Shown piece by piece: positions 3,512-34,893 of a stretch of 55,049 bases of DNA (positions are counted from its first letter, which is position 1; each line of letters begins with the position of its first letter). The notes beneath the pieces are model-generated. The model saw only the letters and a program-made list of their open reading frames with translations, was not told the DNA's origin and ran no database searches. The stretch covers positions 1 to 55,049 of the forward strand of contig BQIW01000020.1 of assembly GCA_021604105.1 (NCBI GenBank), given 5' to 3'. Origin of the DNA: Nitrospirales bacterium. Its GTDB lineage: Bacteria > Nitrospirota > Nitrospiria > Nitrospirales > UBA8639. The position numbers were made by a program, and so were the translations under genes.

Positions 3512-4642
3512 ATGCCAAAAATTTTCTTAGTGACCGGTGAAACGTCCGGTGATATTCATGGAGCGCACTTAGCCCTGGCACTTCGGGAGCTGAATCCCGC
3601 TGTAGAATTAATCGGTGTGGGTGGCAATCGGATGTTGGCCGCCGGGGTCTCGCTTCTACCGCATGTCAAACGGGTAGATGCCATGGGCGTTCCGGGGATC
3701 CGACAGCTCATACAGGGGTGGAAGACCTTACGAATGCTAACCCGTTACCTCAAACGAGAACGGTTTGATGCCATTATCCTTATCGATAGTCCAGGATTGA
3801 ATCTTCGCTTGGCCAAGGCCATCGCACAGAGATCACACAAAATCATCTATTATATTGCCCCTCAGGTGTGGGCATGGGGAAGCCGTCGCTTAGAGCTCAT
3901 TCGAAGAGTGATCAGCCATGTATTAGCAATTCTTCCATTCGAAGAGGCCTATTTCCAAAAAGCCGGCATTCCCTGCACGTATGTTGGGCATCCATTATTG
4001 GATGAGTTAAAGCCTGCTTATGATAGGGTTCATGAGCGTGAAAAATTTGGTTTGGAGAGAGAAGATCTGGTGATCGGTCTGCTGCCTGGGAGTCGTGTCC
4101 GGGAAGTCCGGGAAGTGTTACCGGCCTTCCTCAGTTCGATTGAACAGATCCGGACCCAATACCCTCGACTTCAGGTTCTTCTTGCCCAGGCGCATTCACT
4201 GTCCGATTCGGTGGTGAGGGACCTACTTGGACATTCCAGGCAACCGATAAAAGTGGTTAAAGGTCTGTCCAATGAGGTGATGTCGGCCTCAAATCTTCTC
4301 TTGGTGACCTCCGGGACTGCGACATTGCAAGCGGCCTTGATTGGAACACCGATGGTCGTGGTCTATCGAACATCTCCCTTGACCTATCATATTGGCAAAC
4401 GTCTGGTTAAAATTCCCTATATAAGTTTAGTGAACATTTTAGCCGGTAAAGAAATTGTTCCGGAGCTGATTCAGGATCGTATGACCCCGAGCTGTATTGT
4501 TGACGAAGCCTTAGACATCTTGCAAGACGTTCGCCGCCAGAACGACATGACCCAGGCTTTCCAGGCCATTCGGACTATTCTGGGGGAAACGGGGGCGTCG
4601 AAACGGGCTGCAGCATATATCCTTGCTGAGACCACCCTATGA
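3512..4642 (+). CDS. lpxB: Lipid-A-disaccharide synthase LpxB
   Basis: GT19 glycosyltransferase that condenses lipid X with UDP-2,3-diacylglucosamine to form the beta-1,6 disaccharide 1-phosphate at the inner face of the inner membrane. The 376-aa protein carries the family blocks VTGETSGDIHGA at the N-terminus, YYIAPQVWAWG in the middle, YVGHPLLDE, and LLPGSRVREV. Near the C-terminus are VTSGTATLQAAL and VYRTSPLTY. Its stop overlaps the msbA start by ATGA, indicating translational coupling. Confidence 0.95.
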   Translation: MPKIFLVTGETSGDIHGAHLALALRELNPAVELIGVGGNRMLAAGVSLLPHVKRVDAMGVPGIRQLIQGWKTLRMLTRYLKRERFDAIILIDSPGLNLRLAKAIAQRSHKIIYYIAPQVWAWGSRRLELIRRVISHVLAILPFEEAYFQKAGIPCTYVGHPLLDELKPAYDRVHEREKFGLEREDLVIGLLPGSRVREVREVLPAFLSSIEQIRTQYPRLQVLLAQAHSLSDSVVRDLLGHSRQPIKVVKGLSNEVMSASNLLLVTSGTATLQAALIGTPMVVVYRTSPLTYHIGKRLVKIPYISLVNILAGKEIVPELIQDRMTPSCIVDEALDILQDVRRQNDMTQAFQAIRTILGETGASKRAAAYILAETTL

Positions 4643-6393
4643 GGATCTTCTGGCGAATCGTATCGTATCTGAAGGAGTACCGCCTGCGGTTGATTGGCGC
4701 GTTTGTCTGTTCTGCCGGAGTGGCAGGATTATCAGCGGTCTATGCCTGGCTTGTCCAACCGGTTCTGGATGGAATCTTTATTGAGCGCAATCGGGACATG
4801 TTGCTCATCCTTCCGTTGGCTGTCCTGGGTGTCGCGATTTTGAAAGCGTCCTTTGCGTATGGACAGGGTTATCTCATGAGTTATGTCGGGCACTGGCTGG
4901 TGTCCGATATTCGGCAGCAGTTGTTTATTCATATCGTGCGCCTGCCTATTCGGTTTCACGATGCGAATGCCTCAGGACGGTTGATGGCCAGGGTGATTAG
5001 CGACGTCAACGAAATGGCAAATGCCATTCCCAGTGTGTTGAAGGATATCTTTCAACAGGGGCTGACGTTTGTAGCGATGCTGTCGGTGGTCTTTTATCAA
5101 AATTGGAAACTCGCGACGATTGTGTTGGTCGTATTGCCTTTTTCCTCATTTGTGTTGGTCCGGGTCGGCCAACGGATTCGTAAACTTTCAAAACGTGGCC
5201 AAGAATCCATTGGAAAAATGGCCTCCGTATTAAAAGAGGCATTTTCCGGTATTAAGATTGTGAAGGCCTATGGCCAGGAAGAGAAGGAGGCTCATCGATT
5301 CTCTTTGACGAATCAAGCCTTTCGGACAGCAAAAGTTAAATCGTCTCAAACCTCAGCGATGGCTTCTCCGCTCCTTGAAGTCATTGGAGTCTGCGGTGTG
5401 GCCTTTATCATCTGGTATGGGGGAGGATTAGTCATTGCCGGAGAGATGAAGCCCGGAGAGTTCTTTTCCTTTCTGGCTGCCATGTTTATGGCGTATGCCC
5501 CTCTCAGGAAAATGTCCGGAGCCAATGAGTCGGTCCAGCGTGCGCTTGCGGGTGCTCAGCGAGTGTTTCAAGTCCTTGACTTGGAAAGCGAATTAGCGAA
5601 AGACGAAGGCAAAAAGACTCTTCCCCCCATGGCGAAAAATTTGGAATTTTCCGGTGTTAACTTCAGGTATGAAGGCTCTGAAGAGGCGGCCTTGCATGAG
5701 ATCAATTTCACAATCAAGGTGGGGGAGGTGGTGGCGTTCGTCGGGGCCAGTGGTAGTGGAAAAACCACCCTCGTGAGTTTGGTGCCACGGTTTTATCGTC
5801 CTACGGAAGGAGCCGTGAAAATTGATGGTGAGGATATTCGGCTGGTTGATCGATCATCTCTAAGACGGCAAATCGGCATCGTGTCTCAAGAAACCGTGTT
5901 ATTTGATGATACGATCAGGAATAATATCGCCTATGGCCGTTTGGATGCGAGTGATGAGGCGATCATTGAGGCGGCTCGCGCCGCATTTGCCTGGGAATTT
6001 ATTGAGCGGCTGCCTCAGGGGCTGGACACCCTGGTTGGTGAGAATGGGCTGAGATTATCGGGTGGCCAACGTCAACGACTTGCTATTGCCAGGGCCATAT
6101 TGCGGAATCCGCCGATTCTCATTCTGGACGAGGCGACGTCCGCCCTGGATTCGGAATCTGAAAAGCTGGTGCAGAAAGCTCTGGCAAATCTGGTAAAGGC
6201 CAGAACGACCCTGATCATTGCCCACCGATTGTCCACGGTTCAACATGCAGATCGTATTGTGGTTATGAATCGTGGAAGAATTGAAGAGATCGGTACTCAT
6301 GCCGCCTTACTTCAGCAGGGAGGCCTTTATACTCGATTATATCAAACCCAGTTTTTACTGACACAACCCGAACCGTTACCGACCACCTCGTAA
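4639..6393 (+). CDS. msbA: Lipid A export ABC transporter MsbA (permease-ATPase fusion)
   Basis: Half-transporter of 584 aa that works as a homodimer and flips core-lipid A from the inner to the outer leaflet of the inner membrane. It has an N-terminal six-helix ABC transmembrane domain (about residues 15-300) and a C-terminal ATPase. The ATPase has Walker A GASGSGKTT, the signature LSGGQRQR and Walker B ILILDEATSALD, followed by the H-loop IIAHRLST. Its location in a lipid A operon, overlapping lpxB by four bases, separates it from general multidrug exporters of the same architecture. Confidence 0.92.
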   Translation: MRIFWRIVSYLKEYRLRLIGAFVCSAGVAGLSAVYAWLVQPVLDGIFIERNRDMLLILPLAVLGVAILKASFAYGQGYLMSYVGHWLVSDIRQQLFIHIVRLPIRFHDANASGRLMARVISDVNEMANAIPSVLKDIFQQGLTFVAMLSVVFYQNWKLATIVLVVLPFSSFVLVRVGQRIRKLSKRGQESIGKMASVLKEAFSGIKIVKAYGQEEKEAHRFSLTNQAFRTAKVKSSQTSAMASPLLEVIGVCGVAFIIWYGGGLVIAGEMKPGEFFSFLAAMFMAYAPLRKMSGANESVQRALAGAQRVFQVLDLESELAKDEGKKTLPPMAKNLEFSGVNFRYEGSEEAALHEINFTIKVGEVVAFVGASGSGKTTLVSLVPRFYRPTEGAVKIDGEDIRLVDRSSLRRQIGIVSQETVLFDDTIRNNIAYGRLDASDEAIIEAARAAFAWEFIERLPQGLDTLVGENGLRLSGGQRQRLAIARAILRNPPILILDEATSALDSESEKLVQKALANLVKARTTLIIAHRLSTVQHADRIVVMNRGRIEEIGTHAALLQQGGLYTRLYQTQFLLTQPEPLPTTS

Positions 6394-6412: not shown

Positions 6413-7137
6413 ATGTTGAATTGGATCAAACTGTCGGTTGCTCCGCCATTGGCCGCAAAAATGATTCGCCTCTTGGGACAGACGATGCGTATATCCACCG
6501 TAGGTGGGGAAGCCGTGGACGACTTATATCGCCAAGGCCGACAGATCATTATTGCTTTCTGGCATGGCCGTCAGTTGATGATGCCGTTGGCCTACCGGGG
6601 ACGGCAGGCCTCAATTTTAATTAGCCAACATCGGGATGGAGAAATCATTGCGCGTATCATGGGTTATTTTGGATTCCAGTCCATTCGTGGATCGAGCACA
6701 CGCGGGGGGCTTCGAGCCACCAGGCAATTATTGAAGGCCGGGCGGAATGGCGGAGATCTTGTGGTGACGCCCGATGGCCCGAAGGGTCCAGCCTGCACGG
6801 TACAATCGGGAGTGATTTACCTGGCAAAAACGACGGGATTGCCCATTATCCCGTTAACCTTTGCCTGCTCAAAAAAAAAGTCTTTGCCAGTTGGGATCGC
6901 TTTCAGATTCCCTATCCAGGTGGGATAGGGTTATTTGTGTGGGGATCCCCCATCTGGGTAAGCGAAGACCTTTCCAACGAACAGCTGTCCGGTCCAGGGT
7001 TGAGGCTGGAAGATTCGTTGAATCGGCTTACGGCTCAGGCCGAATTGGCTGTTCACGATTCCGACCCGGTTGAATCATTTCTCCGCAGGATGTCCTCCAC
7101 TGACTTTATTGAAAAAAAACAAACATACGACGCGTGA
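6413..7137 (+). CDS. DUF374 lysophospholipid acyltransferase-like protein, interrupted by a -1 frameshift
   Basis: Lauroyl/LPLAT-type acyltransferase of the DUF374 family, common next to waaA in lipid A operons and likely to add a secondary acyl chain. The first frame (to TAG at 6926-6928) has the family blocks IIAFWHGRQLMMP, SQHRDGEII, RGSSTRGG and VVTPDGPKGP. After a run of nine A (6871-6879) the homologous sequence continues in the -1 frame (FASWDRFQIPYPG, then LRLEDSLNRLTAQAE) to TGA at 7135-7137. Read together the product has about 241 aa, a normal length. The break is either a recoding site, a real mutation or a one-base homopolymer error. GTG at 6407 is an alternative start. Confidence 0.8.
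6874..6880 (+). other. A AAA AAG slippery heptamer at the acyltransferase frame break
   Basis: In the zero frame the codons are AAA (6875-6877) and AAG (6878-6880), preceded by A. This is the X XXY YYZ heptamer used for programmed -1 frameshifting in E. coli dnaX. Slipping back by one base leads directly into the frame that encodes the rest of the DUF374 domain. The site lies in an A9 run, so transcriptional slippage or an assembly error would give the same picture. Confidence 0.5.
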
Positions 7138-7144
7138 CCCACCC

Positions 7145-8506
7145 ATGTATTATGTGATGTATAACGTGCTGCTGGTACTGGCCTTCCCCGTTATCATCGG
7201 TCTTCTCCTGACAAAAAAACGCAGTCAACGCGGCCTTTGGTGTCGGCTCGGCGCGTTTCCTGTCGAATTGCGGAAACTTCAGAAACCTGTCATTTGGATC
7301 CATGCGGTCTCTCTGGGGGAGGTGGCGGCCATGGTTCCTTTGCTCCAGGCGATGAAGCAGCGGTACCCTCAGTGCCCGTTGGTCGTATCTACTGTGACCG
7401 AGACCGGCCGGGAAGTCGTGATCAAGCGTTTGGAAGGGGTGGCTGTCCATTGTTATGCTCCCGTTGATTTTTGGTGGGCGGTTGACCGGTATATCCGCAT
7501 ACTTCAGCCACAGCTCTTTATTTTGGTCGAATCAGAATTCTGGCCCAATCTGCTTAAACATCTTCAACGGCATCGGGTGCCGATCTGTCTTGTCAACGGG
7601 AGAATCTCTTCACGATCATTTGCCAGGTATCGCTGGGTTAGAGGCATGATGAGGCAGGTGTTGAGCTGTCTCGATCTTGCCTTGATGCAATCGGAGCAGG
7701 ATGCCGAGCGCATCGGCCATTTCGGCGTTAAGCCGAATGTCACGCATGTCACCGGGAATATGAAGTTTGATCAAGGGCTTGAGCAAGGTCCGTCTGCCGA
7801 TGCCCATGCCTCTCTCAGGTCACTCTTCAGGGGCTGTGCTGCTGAGGGGCTGATTGTGGCTGGTAGTACCCATCCTCAGGAAGAAGAGTGTTTGTTGGAC
7901 GCGTACCGGCAGGTAATTGCGCAACACCCCCACGCCGTGCTGGTAATGGCTCCAAGACATATCGAGCGGGTGGCTAAACTTGAACAGGTCATTCGGCAGT
8001 ATGGATTTTCCTGTGTTCGCCGCAGTGCGTTGGTGCAGGGTGTCGGAGAGCGGGCTATGTCCCATGGCCCTCACGTCATCGTGTTAGACACCAGGGGGGA
8101 GTTGGCCTTTGTCTACCGGGAGGCGTGCGTCGCTTTTGTGGGGGGGACACTGGTTCCGGTTGGAGGACATAATTTGTTGGAACCTGCACAATGGGGTCGC
8201 CCCGTCCTGTTTGGTCCCCATATCGATCATTGCCGGGACATTGCCGGACGGCTTCTGGGAGCAGGAGGAGGCATACAAATACAGAATCAGGAGGATTTGG
8301 CCTCTCAGCTGATTCGTCTGATCGCGCATCCTTCAGAAGCCGGGGAAATGGGCCAAAGGGCATTGGAAATGGTCCGGACCCATCGGGGCGTCGTCACCAG
8401 GAATCTTCAATGGATTGATCAATTATTGTCTAAAGACAATTCGGCCATTTTCTCTTTGACGGCGGAAGGGTCTACGTCACGTAAATCTCAGGAAGTGCTC
8501 CGATAA
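7145..8506 (+). CDS. waaA: 3-deoxy-D-manno-octulosonic acid (Kdo) transferase WaaA/KdtA
   Basis: GT30 enzyme that transfers Kdo from CMP-Kdo to the lipid IVA precursor at the cytosolic face of the inner membrane. The 453-aa protein begins with the typical membrane anchor (MYYVMYNVLLVLAFP), then IWIHAVSLGEV, and VESEFWPNLL in the N-terminal domain. The C-terminal domain has GSTHPQEE, APRHIERV and VGGTLVPVGGHNLLEPA, where the GGHN-EPA block is diagnostic. The reading frame is open upstream to 7070, but family alignment favours the ATG at 7145, just after the acyltransferase stop. Confidence 0.94.
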   Translation: MYYVMYNVLLVLAFPVIIGLLLTKKRSQRGLWCRLGAFPVELRKLQKPVIWIHAVSLGEVAAMVPLLQAMKQRYPQCPLVVSTVTETGREVVIKRLEGVAVHCYAPVDFWWAVDRYIRILQPQLFILVESEFWPNLLKHLQRHRVPICLVNGRISSRSFARYRWVRGMMRQVLSCLDLALMQSEQDAERIGHFGVKPNVTHVTGNMKFDQGLEQGPSADAHASLRSLFRGCAAEGLIVAGSTHPQEEECLLDAYRQVIAQHPHAVLVMAPRHIERVAKLEQVIRQYGFSCVRRSALVQGVGERAMSHGPHVIVLDTRGELAFVYREACVAFVGGTLVPVGGHNLLEPAQWGRPVLFGPHIDHCRDIAGRLLGAGGGIQIQNQEDLASQLIRLIAHPSEAGEMGQRALEMVRTHRGVVTRNLQWIDQLLSKDNSAIFSLTAEGSTSRKSQEVLR

Positions 8507-8525: not shown

Positions 8526-9659
8526 ATGAGGGGAGAATATGATCTCCGCCATGTATCCTCCGTGAACACGACTCCTGCAAATGGTGTGAACCCGGAACGG
8601 CTCTGGCGTTGGTTGGACCGGCGTTCCCCATGGATCCTCCGGTGGTGTGCTGTTCCCTACGGTGCGGTTGGCCGCTTGCGGAGGACGGCCTATCAATGTG
8701 GCTGGTTTCCTCAACATCGATTGCCAAAACCGGTTATCAGTGTGGGGAATATGACCGTAGGGGGAACCGGGAAGACACCATTGGTGATGTGGTTGGCCGC
8801 CAGACTCCATGAACGGGGCAAGCGGGTTGCGATTTTAAGCCGGGGGTATGGCAGACAAGGTTCGTCAGTGAATAGACTGGTCTCTGACGGCGTTTCGCTG
8901 ATGGGAGATTGGCGTTCGGTAGGGGATGAAGCCATGCTGATGGCCCACAAGTGCCCATGGGCGGTTGTGGCAGTGGGAAGCAATCGTTATCGGCTGGGAC
9001 AGTGGGTGTTGGAGCAAACCTCATGCGATTGCTTTCTTCTGGATGATGGCTTCCAGCATCTTTCCCTGTATCGCGATCTTGACGTGCTCTTATTTGATGC
9101 GACGGATGTTGAAGGCTTAAGCGGAGTCCTGCCGGCTGGCCGAATGCGTGAACCGCTGTCTGCCGCAAAATGGGCCACCACGATCATCTTTAGTCGAACG
9201 GAACGAGATGGGTCGGTCGCATCACTTCAGAATCAAATTGAACAGAGTGTGGGAACGTCCATTGTTCCCTTGCGACTGGAAACCGTACCTGGCTGTTTCA
9301 CGCATATTGCGACAGGGAAATCTCAACAGGGCGTCGCCTTCAAGGGTATATCCTGTATGCTCTTTTGCGGGATAGGCAATCCCGCCTCCTTTCGATCGAG
9401 TGTGATTTCCTGTGGGTTGACGGTAGGAGAGGAGGTTCGGTACCCCGATCATTTTGCCTATTCAGAACAAGATGTGAAAGCCATTCGTTTGAGAATGCAA
9501 CGTTTAGGGCTTGATCTCGCGATCACAACGGAAAAAGATGCTCTAAAAATTAAAGAGCATCTGAAACATGATGACCCTCTATGGGCGTTGGATGTGCAAG
9601 TGCGGATGACACAAGGGGAAGAACGGTTATTGGAACAGCTCCAGGCCATTTGTCCATAG
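8526..9659 (+). CDS. lpxK: Tetraacyldisaccharide 4'-kinase LpxK
   Basis: Membrane-associated P-loop kinase that phosphorylates the 4' position of the lipid A disaccharide. The 377-aa protein has the LpxK-type Walker A in VGNMTVGGTGKTP, then LSRGYGR, GDEAMLMA, and the DDGFQH motif in CDCFLLDDGFQH. PAGRMREPL follows, and FPDHF-like YPDHFAYS with TTEKDALK near the end. The first 20-odd residues are variable, so the exact start (ATG 8526 or a codon inside) is uncertain. The gene is 19 bp downstream of waaA. Confidence 0.93.
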   Translation: MRGEYDLRHVSSVNTTPANGVNPERLWRWLDRRSPWILRWCAVPYGAVGRLRRTAYQCGWFPQHRLPKPVISVGNMTVGGTGKTPLVMWLAARLHERGKRVAILSRGYGRQGSSVNRLVSDGVSLMGDWRSVGDEAMLMAHKCPWAVVAVGSNRYRLGQWVLEQTSCDCFLLDDGFQHLSLYRDLDVLLFDATDVEGLSGVLPAGRMREPLSAAKWATTIIFSRTERDGSVASLQNQIEQSVGTSIVPLRLETVPGCFTHIATGKSQQGVAFKGISCMLFCGIGNPASFRSSVISCGLTVGEEVRYPDHFAYSEQDVKAIRLRMQRLGLDLAITTEKDALKIKEHLKHDDPLWALDVQVRMTQGEERLLEQLQAICP

Positions 9660-9727: not shown

Positions 9728-10813
9728 ATGAACATTCTCGTCCGCGTTCCCAACTGGATCGGAGATGCCGTGATGTGCCTACCGGCTCTCACGGATTTGC
9801 GGAATCATCATCCTCATGGCAAGGTCACGGTGTTGGCCAGGCCGGTCATCGGGGACCTGCTGAGAGGACAACCGGGAGTGGATGAGGTCATGATGTATTT
9901 CCATCAAGGGGAACATAAGGGACTTTTCGGGCTCTGGCATCTCATTCACCTTGTGAAGAAAAAGCAATTTGATTGTGCGGTGTTATTCCAAAATGCCTTT
10001 GAAGCCGCTCTCATTGCCTGGATGGCTGGCATCCCATCCCGCATAGGGTATGCGACGGATGGACGACGATGGCTTCTGTCCGAGGCTGTACTCAGGCCGG
10101 ATCGGGCTACCCTGCATCATACGGTGTATTACCAGGAACTCGTGAAAGGAATCGTCCAATCTTACGGGAAAGACCGGTCCCCCCAACTTTTTCTCTCTCC
10201 CGGGGTAAAGAATGCATGTGCCAGACAGTTTCCTGAAGTATTTTTTCCATCAGAGGATCTGATCATTGGGATGAATCCAGGGTCCGTGTATGGATCGGCC
10301 AAGCGATGGATACCGGAACGTTTCGCGGAGGTGGGTGATCGGCTGGTTGAGCGCCTAACAAAGGAATTAACCGGGACTCCCTTTGTCCGCTGTGTTCTGA
10401 TTGGAGGCAAAGGAGAAGAAGCACTTGCGCAGGACATTGCCGGGCGGATGCGGCATGAGCCGATCGTTTTGTCAGGACGGACGACGATCCAAGAACTAAT
10501 GGGGGTGTTGACACGCTGCTCCGTCTTGGTTACCAACGATACAGGACCTATGCATGTGGCTCAGGCTCTTGGGATTCCGGTCGCGGCGATTTTTGGTTCA
10601 ACGGATCCCTCCACGACAAGTCCTCATGGACAATCGGGTGGCGTGGTGACGGCATCGGTTCGTTGTGCACCCTGTTTATTGCGCGCCTGTCCGATTGATC
10701 ATCGTTGCATGACCCAGGTGTCCGTTGAACAGGTCGTGGACGTCGCGCTGTCTCAAATCAGGATGTCAAAAAATTACGGGAACGAAGGTCGGATCAAAGG
10801 GCATGCTGGATGA
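9728..10813 (+). CDS. waaF: LPS heptosyltransferase II (GT9)
   Basis: Adds the second L-glycero-D-manno-heptose of the inner core from ADP-heptose. The 361-aa protein opens with VRVPNWIGDAVM, the WaaF form of the GT9 N-terminal block, and has NPGSVYGSAKRW, VLIGGKGE, LSGRTTIQELMGVL and VTNDTGPMHVAQALG in the C-terminal Rossmann domain. The run of cysteines near the end (CAPC...CPIDHRC) is also seen in WaaF homologues. The stop overlaps the gmhB start by ATGA, linking heptose transfer with ADP-heptose precursor synthesis. Confidence 0.92.
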   Translation: MNILVRVPNWIGDAVMCLPALTDLRNHHPHGKVTVLARPVIGDLLRGQPGVDEVMMYFHQGEHKGLFGLWHLIHLVKKKQFDCAVLFQNAFEAALIAWMAGIPSRIGYATDGRRWLLSEAVLRPDRATLHHTVYYQELVKGIVQSYGKDRSPQLFLSPGVKNACARQFPEVFFPSEDLIIGMNPGSVYGSAKRWIPERFAEVGDRLVERLTKELTGTPFVRCVLIGGKGEEALAQDIAGRMRHEPIVLSGRTTIQELMGVLTRCSVLVTNDTGPMHVAQALGIPVAAIFGSTDPSTTSPHGQSGGVVTASVRCAPCLLRACPIDHRCMTQVSVEQVVDVALSQIRMSKNYGNEGRIKGHAG

Positions 10814-34284: not shown

Positions 34285-34893
34285 GTGATAAAGAAAGGTA
34301 GAAATGAACCGGTGAGAAAAAACCGTGAGACTGCTTCTCTATCGAAAGGGACTAAAACAGCTATTCCTCTCAAAAAAAAAGATTTCCCACAATCGTTAAA
34401 TAGACCAGAGAAGGTTTTTAAATCGCTGAAATTATTTGCAACGGATGTGGATGGAGTTCTGACCGATGCCGGCATGTACTATGGGGAGTCGGGCGAGGAA
34501 TTGAAAAAATTTCACACGCGTGATGGCATGGGGATTAAACTCTTACAGGCCCAAGGGTTGATCACTGCTATCATAACCATGGAAAACACCAAAATTGTCG
34601 CTCGCCGGGGAAAAAAACTGGGCATTCCCGAAGTCTTTCAAGGTGCAAAGGATAAGGTCGCCATTCTCCGCCATCTGTCTGACAAATACGGGATTCCCTT
34701 TGCACAAATGGCCTACATTGGGGATGATGTGAATGATGTGGAAGCGTTGCAAACTGTGGGATATGCCGCAGCTCCTGCGGATTGTGTAGAGCAAGTCCGT
34801 CAGGTTGTGCATTATGTCTGCAAAAAAAAGGGAGGTGAGGGAGCCGTTCGGGAAGTTATCGATAAAATTTTGGCTGGGAAAAACCCACAGTAG
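34285..34893 (+). CDS. KdsC-type HAD phosphatase (Kdo-8-phosphate phosphatase-like)
   Basis: The HAD core begins at LFATDVDGVLTD (nucleophile Asp54, acid/base Asp56) and continues GEELKKFHTRDGMG, IITMEN, RRGKKLGI, VFQGAKDK and IGDDVNDV. This is the capless, tetrameric KdsC subfamily that hydrolyses Kdo 8-phosphate to Kdo. Here an unusual basic N-terminal extension of about 45 residues precedes the core, containing an A9 run in frame (34372-34380). GTG at 34285 or 34312 can start it. KdsA, KdsB and KdsD are not in the window, so substrate is inferred from family. Confidence 0.82.
   Translation: MIKKGRNEPVRKNRETASLSKGTKTAIPLKKKDFPQSLNRPEKVFKSLKLFATDVDGVLTDAGMYYGESGEELKKFHTRDGMGIKLLQAQGLITAIITMENTKIVARRGKKLGIPEVFQGAKDKVAILRHLSDKYGIPFAQMAYIGDDVNDVEALQTVGYAAAPADCVEQVRQVVHYVCKKKGGEGAVREVIDKILAGKNPQ

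Follow-up and report, generated by a model that had tools for sequence, protein, structure and literature searches.

The predicted DUF374 acyltransferase gene of a Nitrospirales bacterium changes reading frame at a run of nine adenines, and the same split recurs at the identical place in 183 of the 204 Nitrospirota genomes in which we read the junction, far beyond what chance would give. We consider it probable that this is a conserved recoding site on which the enzyme obligatorily depends and that it works through slippage of RNA polymerase on the A tract. The likeliest account of the comparative data is that such slippage is required for the enzyme and that, across several classes of a single phylum, purifying selection has maintained it. 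Few cellular bacterial genes show conserved recoding, dnaX and prfB being the textbook cases. Here, an envelope-lipid enzyme has kept an interruption across several Nitrospirota classes, including in the nitrite-oxidizing Nitrospira, and the question of why selection retains a gene dependent on an error becomes testable. Annotation software will tend to call such a gene broken, so that protein databases and proteomics searches would miss the enzyme's last third.

Genomic context and position of the frame change

The window (the whole stretch of DNA analyzed, 55,049 nucleotides) is contig 20 of a 4.9-Mb genome in 217 contigs. It carries a lipid A-LPS operon with the gene order lpxB-msbA-DUF374-waaA-lpxK-waaF; the DUF374 acyltransferase gene, present in one copy in its genome, sits between msbA and waaA/kdtA. 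The features discussed here are as follows:

3512 to 4642, + strand: lpxB, lipid-A-disaccharide synthase (TIGR00215, 330 bits)
4639 to 6393, + strand: msbA, lipid A export ABC transporter (TIGR02203, over the cutoff)
6413 to 6928, + strand: DUF374 (PF04028) acyltransferase, zero-frame part, 171 aa from ATG 6413 (PF04028 match)
6871 to 6879, + strand: A9 tract, putative recoding (slippage) site, with C before it and G after it
6871 to 6877, + strand: A AAA AAA, the classical -1 heptamer, on a reading of the sequences common to relatives of both codon phases
6874 to 6880, + strand: A AAA AAG heptamer, with G at its last base in only 42 of 160 relatives with a phase-2 A9 and C in 118
6880 to 7137, + strand: DUF374 acyltransferase, -1-frame part, the C-terminal third (VFASWDRF...), with the stop TGA at 7135 to 7137
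7145 to 8506, + strand: waaA/kdtA, Kdo transferase (PF04413, 216 bits)
8526 to 9659, + strand: lpxK, tetraacyldisaccharide 4'-kinase (TIGR00682)
9728 to 10813, + strand: waaF-like heptosyltransferase II (TIGR02195)

The zero frame opens at ATG 6413 (alternatively GTG 6407) and closes at TAG 6926 to 6928, and PF04028 matches the first half of the gene (8.2e-29; 99.4 bits against a gathering cutoff of 26.8). Read in the DUF374 frame, the tract is TCA AAA AAA AAG; the zero-frame peptide at the junction is ...F A C S K K K S L P V G..., of which residues 157 to 171, past the A tract, form a nonhomologous tail. DUF374 homology resumes in the -1 frame at GTC 6880 (VFASWDRFQIPYPG..., V F A S W D R F Q I P Y P G) and runs to the TGA. 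The initial annotation of the window had the homology pass from the zero frame to the -1 frame at the A AAA AAG of 6874 to 6880, and these positions are right. Given the codon usage of these genes, TCA-AAA-AAA-AAA would be expected by chance at about 0.9% per gene.

A run of eight As (window positions 7112 to 7119) also occurs toward the end of the -1 frame, where the C-terminal tail is poorly conserved. Coupling of translation to waaA was considered as a purpose of the arrangement and rejected, because the spacing between the -1-frame stop and the following start is unconserved (-4 to 271 nt; median, 61).

Distribution of the shifted gene among relatives

We searched 235 genomes of the order and 198 of the phylum. 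All 183 genomes with the C-terminal half in the -1 frame have 9 or 10 consecutive As at the junction. The tract is an A9 beginning at codon position 3 (phase 2) in 160 of them, an A10 in 14, and an A9 beginning at codon position 1 in 8; one further phase-2 A9, in G118, was counted by hand, the apparent in-frame state of that genome being due solely to a stretch of Ns. The shifted set spans families f1, f2, and f3 in the order, f5, f6, f8, and f9 in the class, and f13, f14, f17, and f24 elsewhere in the phylum, that is, ten family-level groups besides the window's own. Phase and length of the tract vary between these families; the required shift is still -1, and the length is still at least nine.

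In family f14 (L132, L133, L134, and L136), the A9 starts at codon position 1 and a zero-frame TGA follows one codon later, so that the short product would end almost exactly at the tract.

Alignment of close relatives at the junction, which the initial annotation had proposed as a check, recovered this A9 together with its frame change. In the first search, matches in 59 relatives covered the entire zero-frame product including its tail, because those relatives carry the same A9. A sequencing or assembly error of one base in the A9 had been the main competing explanation. Homopolymers are error-prone, and the window's genome is in 217 contigs, but an error is ruled out by the occurrence of the same A9 and frame change in 183 genomes, 16 of which are single-contig (including G010, G018, G053, G077, G094, G102, G104, G109, G111, G145, G169, and G182); we give it a negligible probability.

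Frame and tract go together: lineages that are back in one frame have lost the tract, with one exception. The frame is continuous and the tract is gone in G024 (TCG CAC AAG CAT GTC), in G149 (TCC CAA AAA ACA CTC), and in family f4 (AAG AAA TAC GTG). Distant families f16, f19, f20, and f30 have a single frame without a long in-phase run, as do outgroups from other phyla (L053 to L066), which are in frame where readable. The exception is the metagenome-assembled genome (MAG) G005 (L021, L045, and L196), the sole genome with both a tract (A10) and a continuous frame. On the tree, in-frame rows inside the order are interspersed among shifted rows; the shifted state is therefore old in the order and was lost a few times, mostly along with the tract. 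Only four of the tree contrasts are independent on well-supported branches, and they are not significant alone.

G005 would suit phase variation, in which replication slippage toggles the gene between on (A10) and off (A9), and lipopolysaccharide genes with homopolymers are classical contingency loci. However, many genomes in the on state would then be expected, and just 1 of the 185 tract-bearing genomes is in frame. In addition, the A10 of some families still needs the shift, because there the run was lengthened by substitution and not by insertion. We regard phase variation as very improbable.

One other genome departs from the common pattern. In the MAG G229 (L234), the tract is an A10 with one T fewer than in the close relative G029, and the C-terminal half needs a +1 instead of a -1 shift. 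This could be a MAG error or a true switch of direction, and a true switch would favor slippage. In L139 (G044, family f4), the DUF374 gene matches as two pieces that share a frame and lie ~300 bases apart, owing to either an insertion or a misassembly.

Selection on the A tract and on both halves of the gene

The A tract is constrained at the nucleotide level beyond what the protein needs. Among aligned genes, both full Lys codons of the tract are AAA (182/182 and 182/182; 100% each) and the Ser codon is TCA in 172 of 173 (99.4%). By comparison, the commonest third base accounts for 32 to 78% in 64 conserved degenerate columns outside the tract in the same 182 genes, and codon usage elsewhere in these genes is 41% AAA for Lys and 13% TCA among TCN codons, at a median GC content of 61%. 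The ninth A is never G, although the resulting AAG would leave the -1-frame protein unchanged. The 182 genes were chosen for an A9 or longer and the -1 frame. This choice is not the source of the tract's constancy, since the wider set, assembled by homology, holds no shifted gene with a shorter run. Where shifted genes have Lys-Lys-Lys, in-frame relatives carry HKH, QKT, or KKY, so the three lysines are dispensable for the protein. Judged by these codon patterns, the selected feature is the entire A9/A10 tract and not the A AAA AAG heptamer alone.

The conservation that had been noted for both halves of the gene is confirmed by substitution rates. In the window's genus, dN/dS is 0.08 for the N-terminal half and 0.17 for the C-terminal half, and in wider pairs the values are 0.13 and 0.21, respectively. 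Within 53 codons, stops occur in the -1 frame in none of 180 genes, compared to 170 in frame zero and 153 in the +1 frame. Both frames, by these measures, encode selected parts of one protein. An interrupted DNA frame and an early end of frame zero might suggest a pseudogene or an enzyme that has become dispensable. The C-terminal dN/dS of 0.17 and the stop-free -1 frame instead lead us to conclude that the gene is not a pseudogene and that the full-length enzyme needs a -1 shift; the interruption also predates the order, since other families share it. The probability that we assign to gene decay is vanishingly small.

The C-terminal third might also start independently or by reinitiation and assemble with the first part as a second polypeptide, and translational coupling was found in several apparent frameshift clusters by Antonov et al. 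(PMC3711429). Yet the -1-frame stretch that separates the last stop from the conserved Trp contains an ATG, GTG, or TTG in only 69 of 182 genes (ATG in 5; a start preceded by a Shine-Dalgarno-like motif in 6), and the position of the start is unconserved. Two polypeptides are thus highly unlikely. The earlier proposal of a functional -1 recoding event, by programmed shifting or by slippage, is strongly supported by the conserved frame arrangement of the relatives together with their tract.

RNA polymerase slippage as the probable route to the full-length enzyme

Most likely, the cell gets the full enzyme through RNA polymerase slipping on the A run. The polymerase would slip on the A9 such that a fraction of transcripts gain one A (A10) or, equivalently, lose two. 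Slipped mRNA would read TCA AAA AAA AAA GTC and yield the full-length enzyme, and unslipped mRNA would yield a truncated protein without the end of the core fold. We infer that the shift is made at transcription, along with its +1 A product, its efficiency, and the setting of dose as its purpose. Insertions in bacterial transcripts are mainly of a single A or T in homopolymers, and their frequency increases exponentially as the run lengthens (PMC5574713), and a single-base insertion of this kind is the change needed at this A9. A 9A run with a length conserved among homologs was taken as a sign of purposeful slippage by Baranov et al. (PMC1088944).

The alternative of programmed -1 ribosomal frameshifting, in which tRNA-Lys would slip as in dnaX on the A_AAA_AAA or A_AAA_AAG of an unaltered A9 mRNA, is in our estimate unlikely but of real weight. 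All shifted relatives carry a zero-frame A_AAA_AAA, the window also has A_AAA_AAG, and E. coli ribosomes prefer V_VVA_AAR motifs (PMC4066793). The required direction is -1 in all relatives but one, and Antonov et al. (PMC3711429) take a constant direction among homologs as favoring ribosomal frameshifting, which counts against slippage. Ribosomes, too, are prone to shift on nine As, and the two mechanisms may operate jointly.

Classical -1 ribosomal frameshifting requires seven bases, but nine are constrained here. The first A, the third base of the Ser codon, is superfluous for A_AAA_AAG, and the ninth is superfluous for A_AAA_AAA; both are fixed, even though A_AAA_AAA would tolerate G as the ninth base. 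In 118 of the 160 genes with a phase-2 A9, the heptamer is A_AAA_AAC, a poor motif in bacteria, where ribosomes favor A or G at the last base (PMC4066793). No Shine-Dalgarno-like motif was found at positions -20 to -6 upstream of the tract in any of 182 genes, and the fold of the 55 nt just after the tract (on average ~3 kcal/mol below shuffles) is matched by similar values elsewhere in the gene. Because nine As are constrained, most relatives have A_AAA_AAC, and a Shine-Dalgarno-like stimulator is lacking, slippage fits better than dnaX-type ribosomal frameshifting. The emphasis of the initial annotation on the dnaX heptamer holds for the window, where the motif is present, and does not extend to the relatives, where it is in the minority, other families have another tract phase, and the stimulator is missing.

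A point against A9 as a signal is that at least 6 of the first 30 A9 matches listed in this genome lie inside open reading frames (ORFs) that are open for at least 90 codons on both sides; A9 alone is therefore not strongly avoided. The lone apparent frame change among these 30 matches (L211) was rejected as a second case, as it is the boundary between two different genes. The window itself holds a second A9 (34372 to 34380; CTC AAA AAA AAA GAT), in frame and close to the 5' end of an ORF resembling a KdsC-type phosphatase (FATDVDGVLTDAGMYYG; possible GTG start at 34313), where slippage would lower the amount of product.

We suggest tentatively, as a possibility short of an even chance, that slippage is the source of the sole functional product and was kept through the history of the phylum because its efficiency sets the amount of lipid acylation and may adjust it to physiology (for example, nucleotide levels or transcription speed).

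Predicted enzyme fold and the short product

An AlphaFold2 model (pLDDT, 94.7; pTM, 0.91) was built on the in-frame relative L045, which had been aligned to both halves of relatives. A sequence search of the PDB gave no match. The structural matches of the L045 model were to PlsC (5kym; Z, 13.8; rmsd, 4.5 over 192 residues), plant GPAT (1iuq; Z, 13.7), PatA (Z, 13.7), and LpxM (5knk; Z, 11.8). In the model, the PlsC/GPAT/LpxM acyltransferase fold continues across the junction over nearly the whole chain, and the protein is a predicted acyltransferase. The junction corresponds to residues 154 to 156, in the sheet region, and truncation there takes away a strand (172 to 177) and a helix (189 to 213).

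The short form is probably a by-product, because the zero-frame tail varies among relatives from 1 to 88 codons without a conserved end. Both a short and a full-length product had been predicted from this gene. The full-length product of a -1 shift is supported; a useful short form is not, given the unconserved end of the tail and the core fold elements missing in the model.

Comparison with known recoding systems

In E. coli dnaX, ribosomes shift to the -1 frame on A_AAA_AAG; the window shares this heptamer, its frame, and the -1 direction of the shift. Unlike E. coli dnaX, the DUF374 site has no Shine-Dalgarno-like stimulator, its heptamer is unconserved, and the conserved element is longer (9 to 10 As). 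Thermus thermophilus dnaX likewise has an A9 within a cellular gene, on which slippage reframes part of the mRNA (PMC1088944 and PMC3711429). There, however, the unslipped A9 gives full-length tau and the slipped mRNA gives a short form, and both are used, whereas in the DUF374 gene slipped mRNA would be needed for full length and the end of the short form is unconserved.

In the two-ORF dnaX genes with A10 runs in the GeneTack clusters, ORFs in different frames are likewise joined at poly-A, the longer product needs recoding, and slippage has been proposed (PMC3711429); dnaX is a different gene, and the DUF374 arrangement extends across a phylum. Magnesium chelatase genes, too, are enzyme genes split at A7 to A11 that need a -1 shift and have full-length fusions in relatives, and their sites gave 10 to 63% frameshifting in an E. 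coli reporter, with higher values for longer tracts (PMC3711429); the enzyme is unrelated to the DUF374 acyltransferase. The same survey took in one Nitrospirae genome and includes a cluster named "tetraacyldisaccharide kinase/acyltransferase," a name that indicates lpxK linked with an acyltransferase (PMC3711429). The literature searched, which covers the surveys only partly and does not include that of Sharma et al. from 2011, contains no mention of the DUF374 gene as recoded, and earlier notice is possible.

In Citrobacter rodentium tssM, transcription similarly bypasses an interruption at the DNA level, but that is one interrupted gene in one species (PMC4256274), whereas the DUF374 interruption is phylum-wide. 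The DUF374 site adds an unusually deep case to a known kind of recoding.
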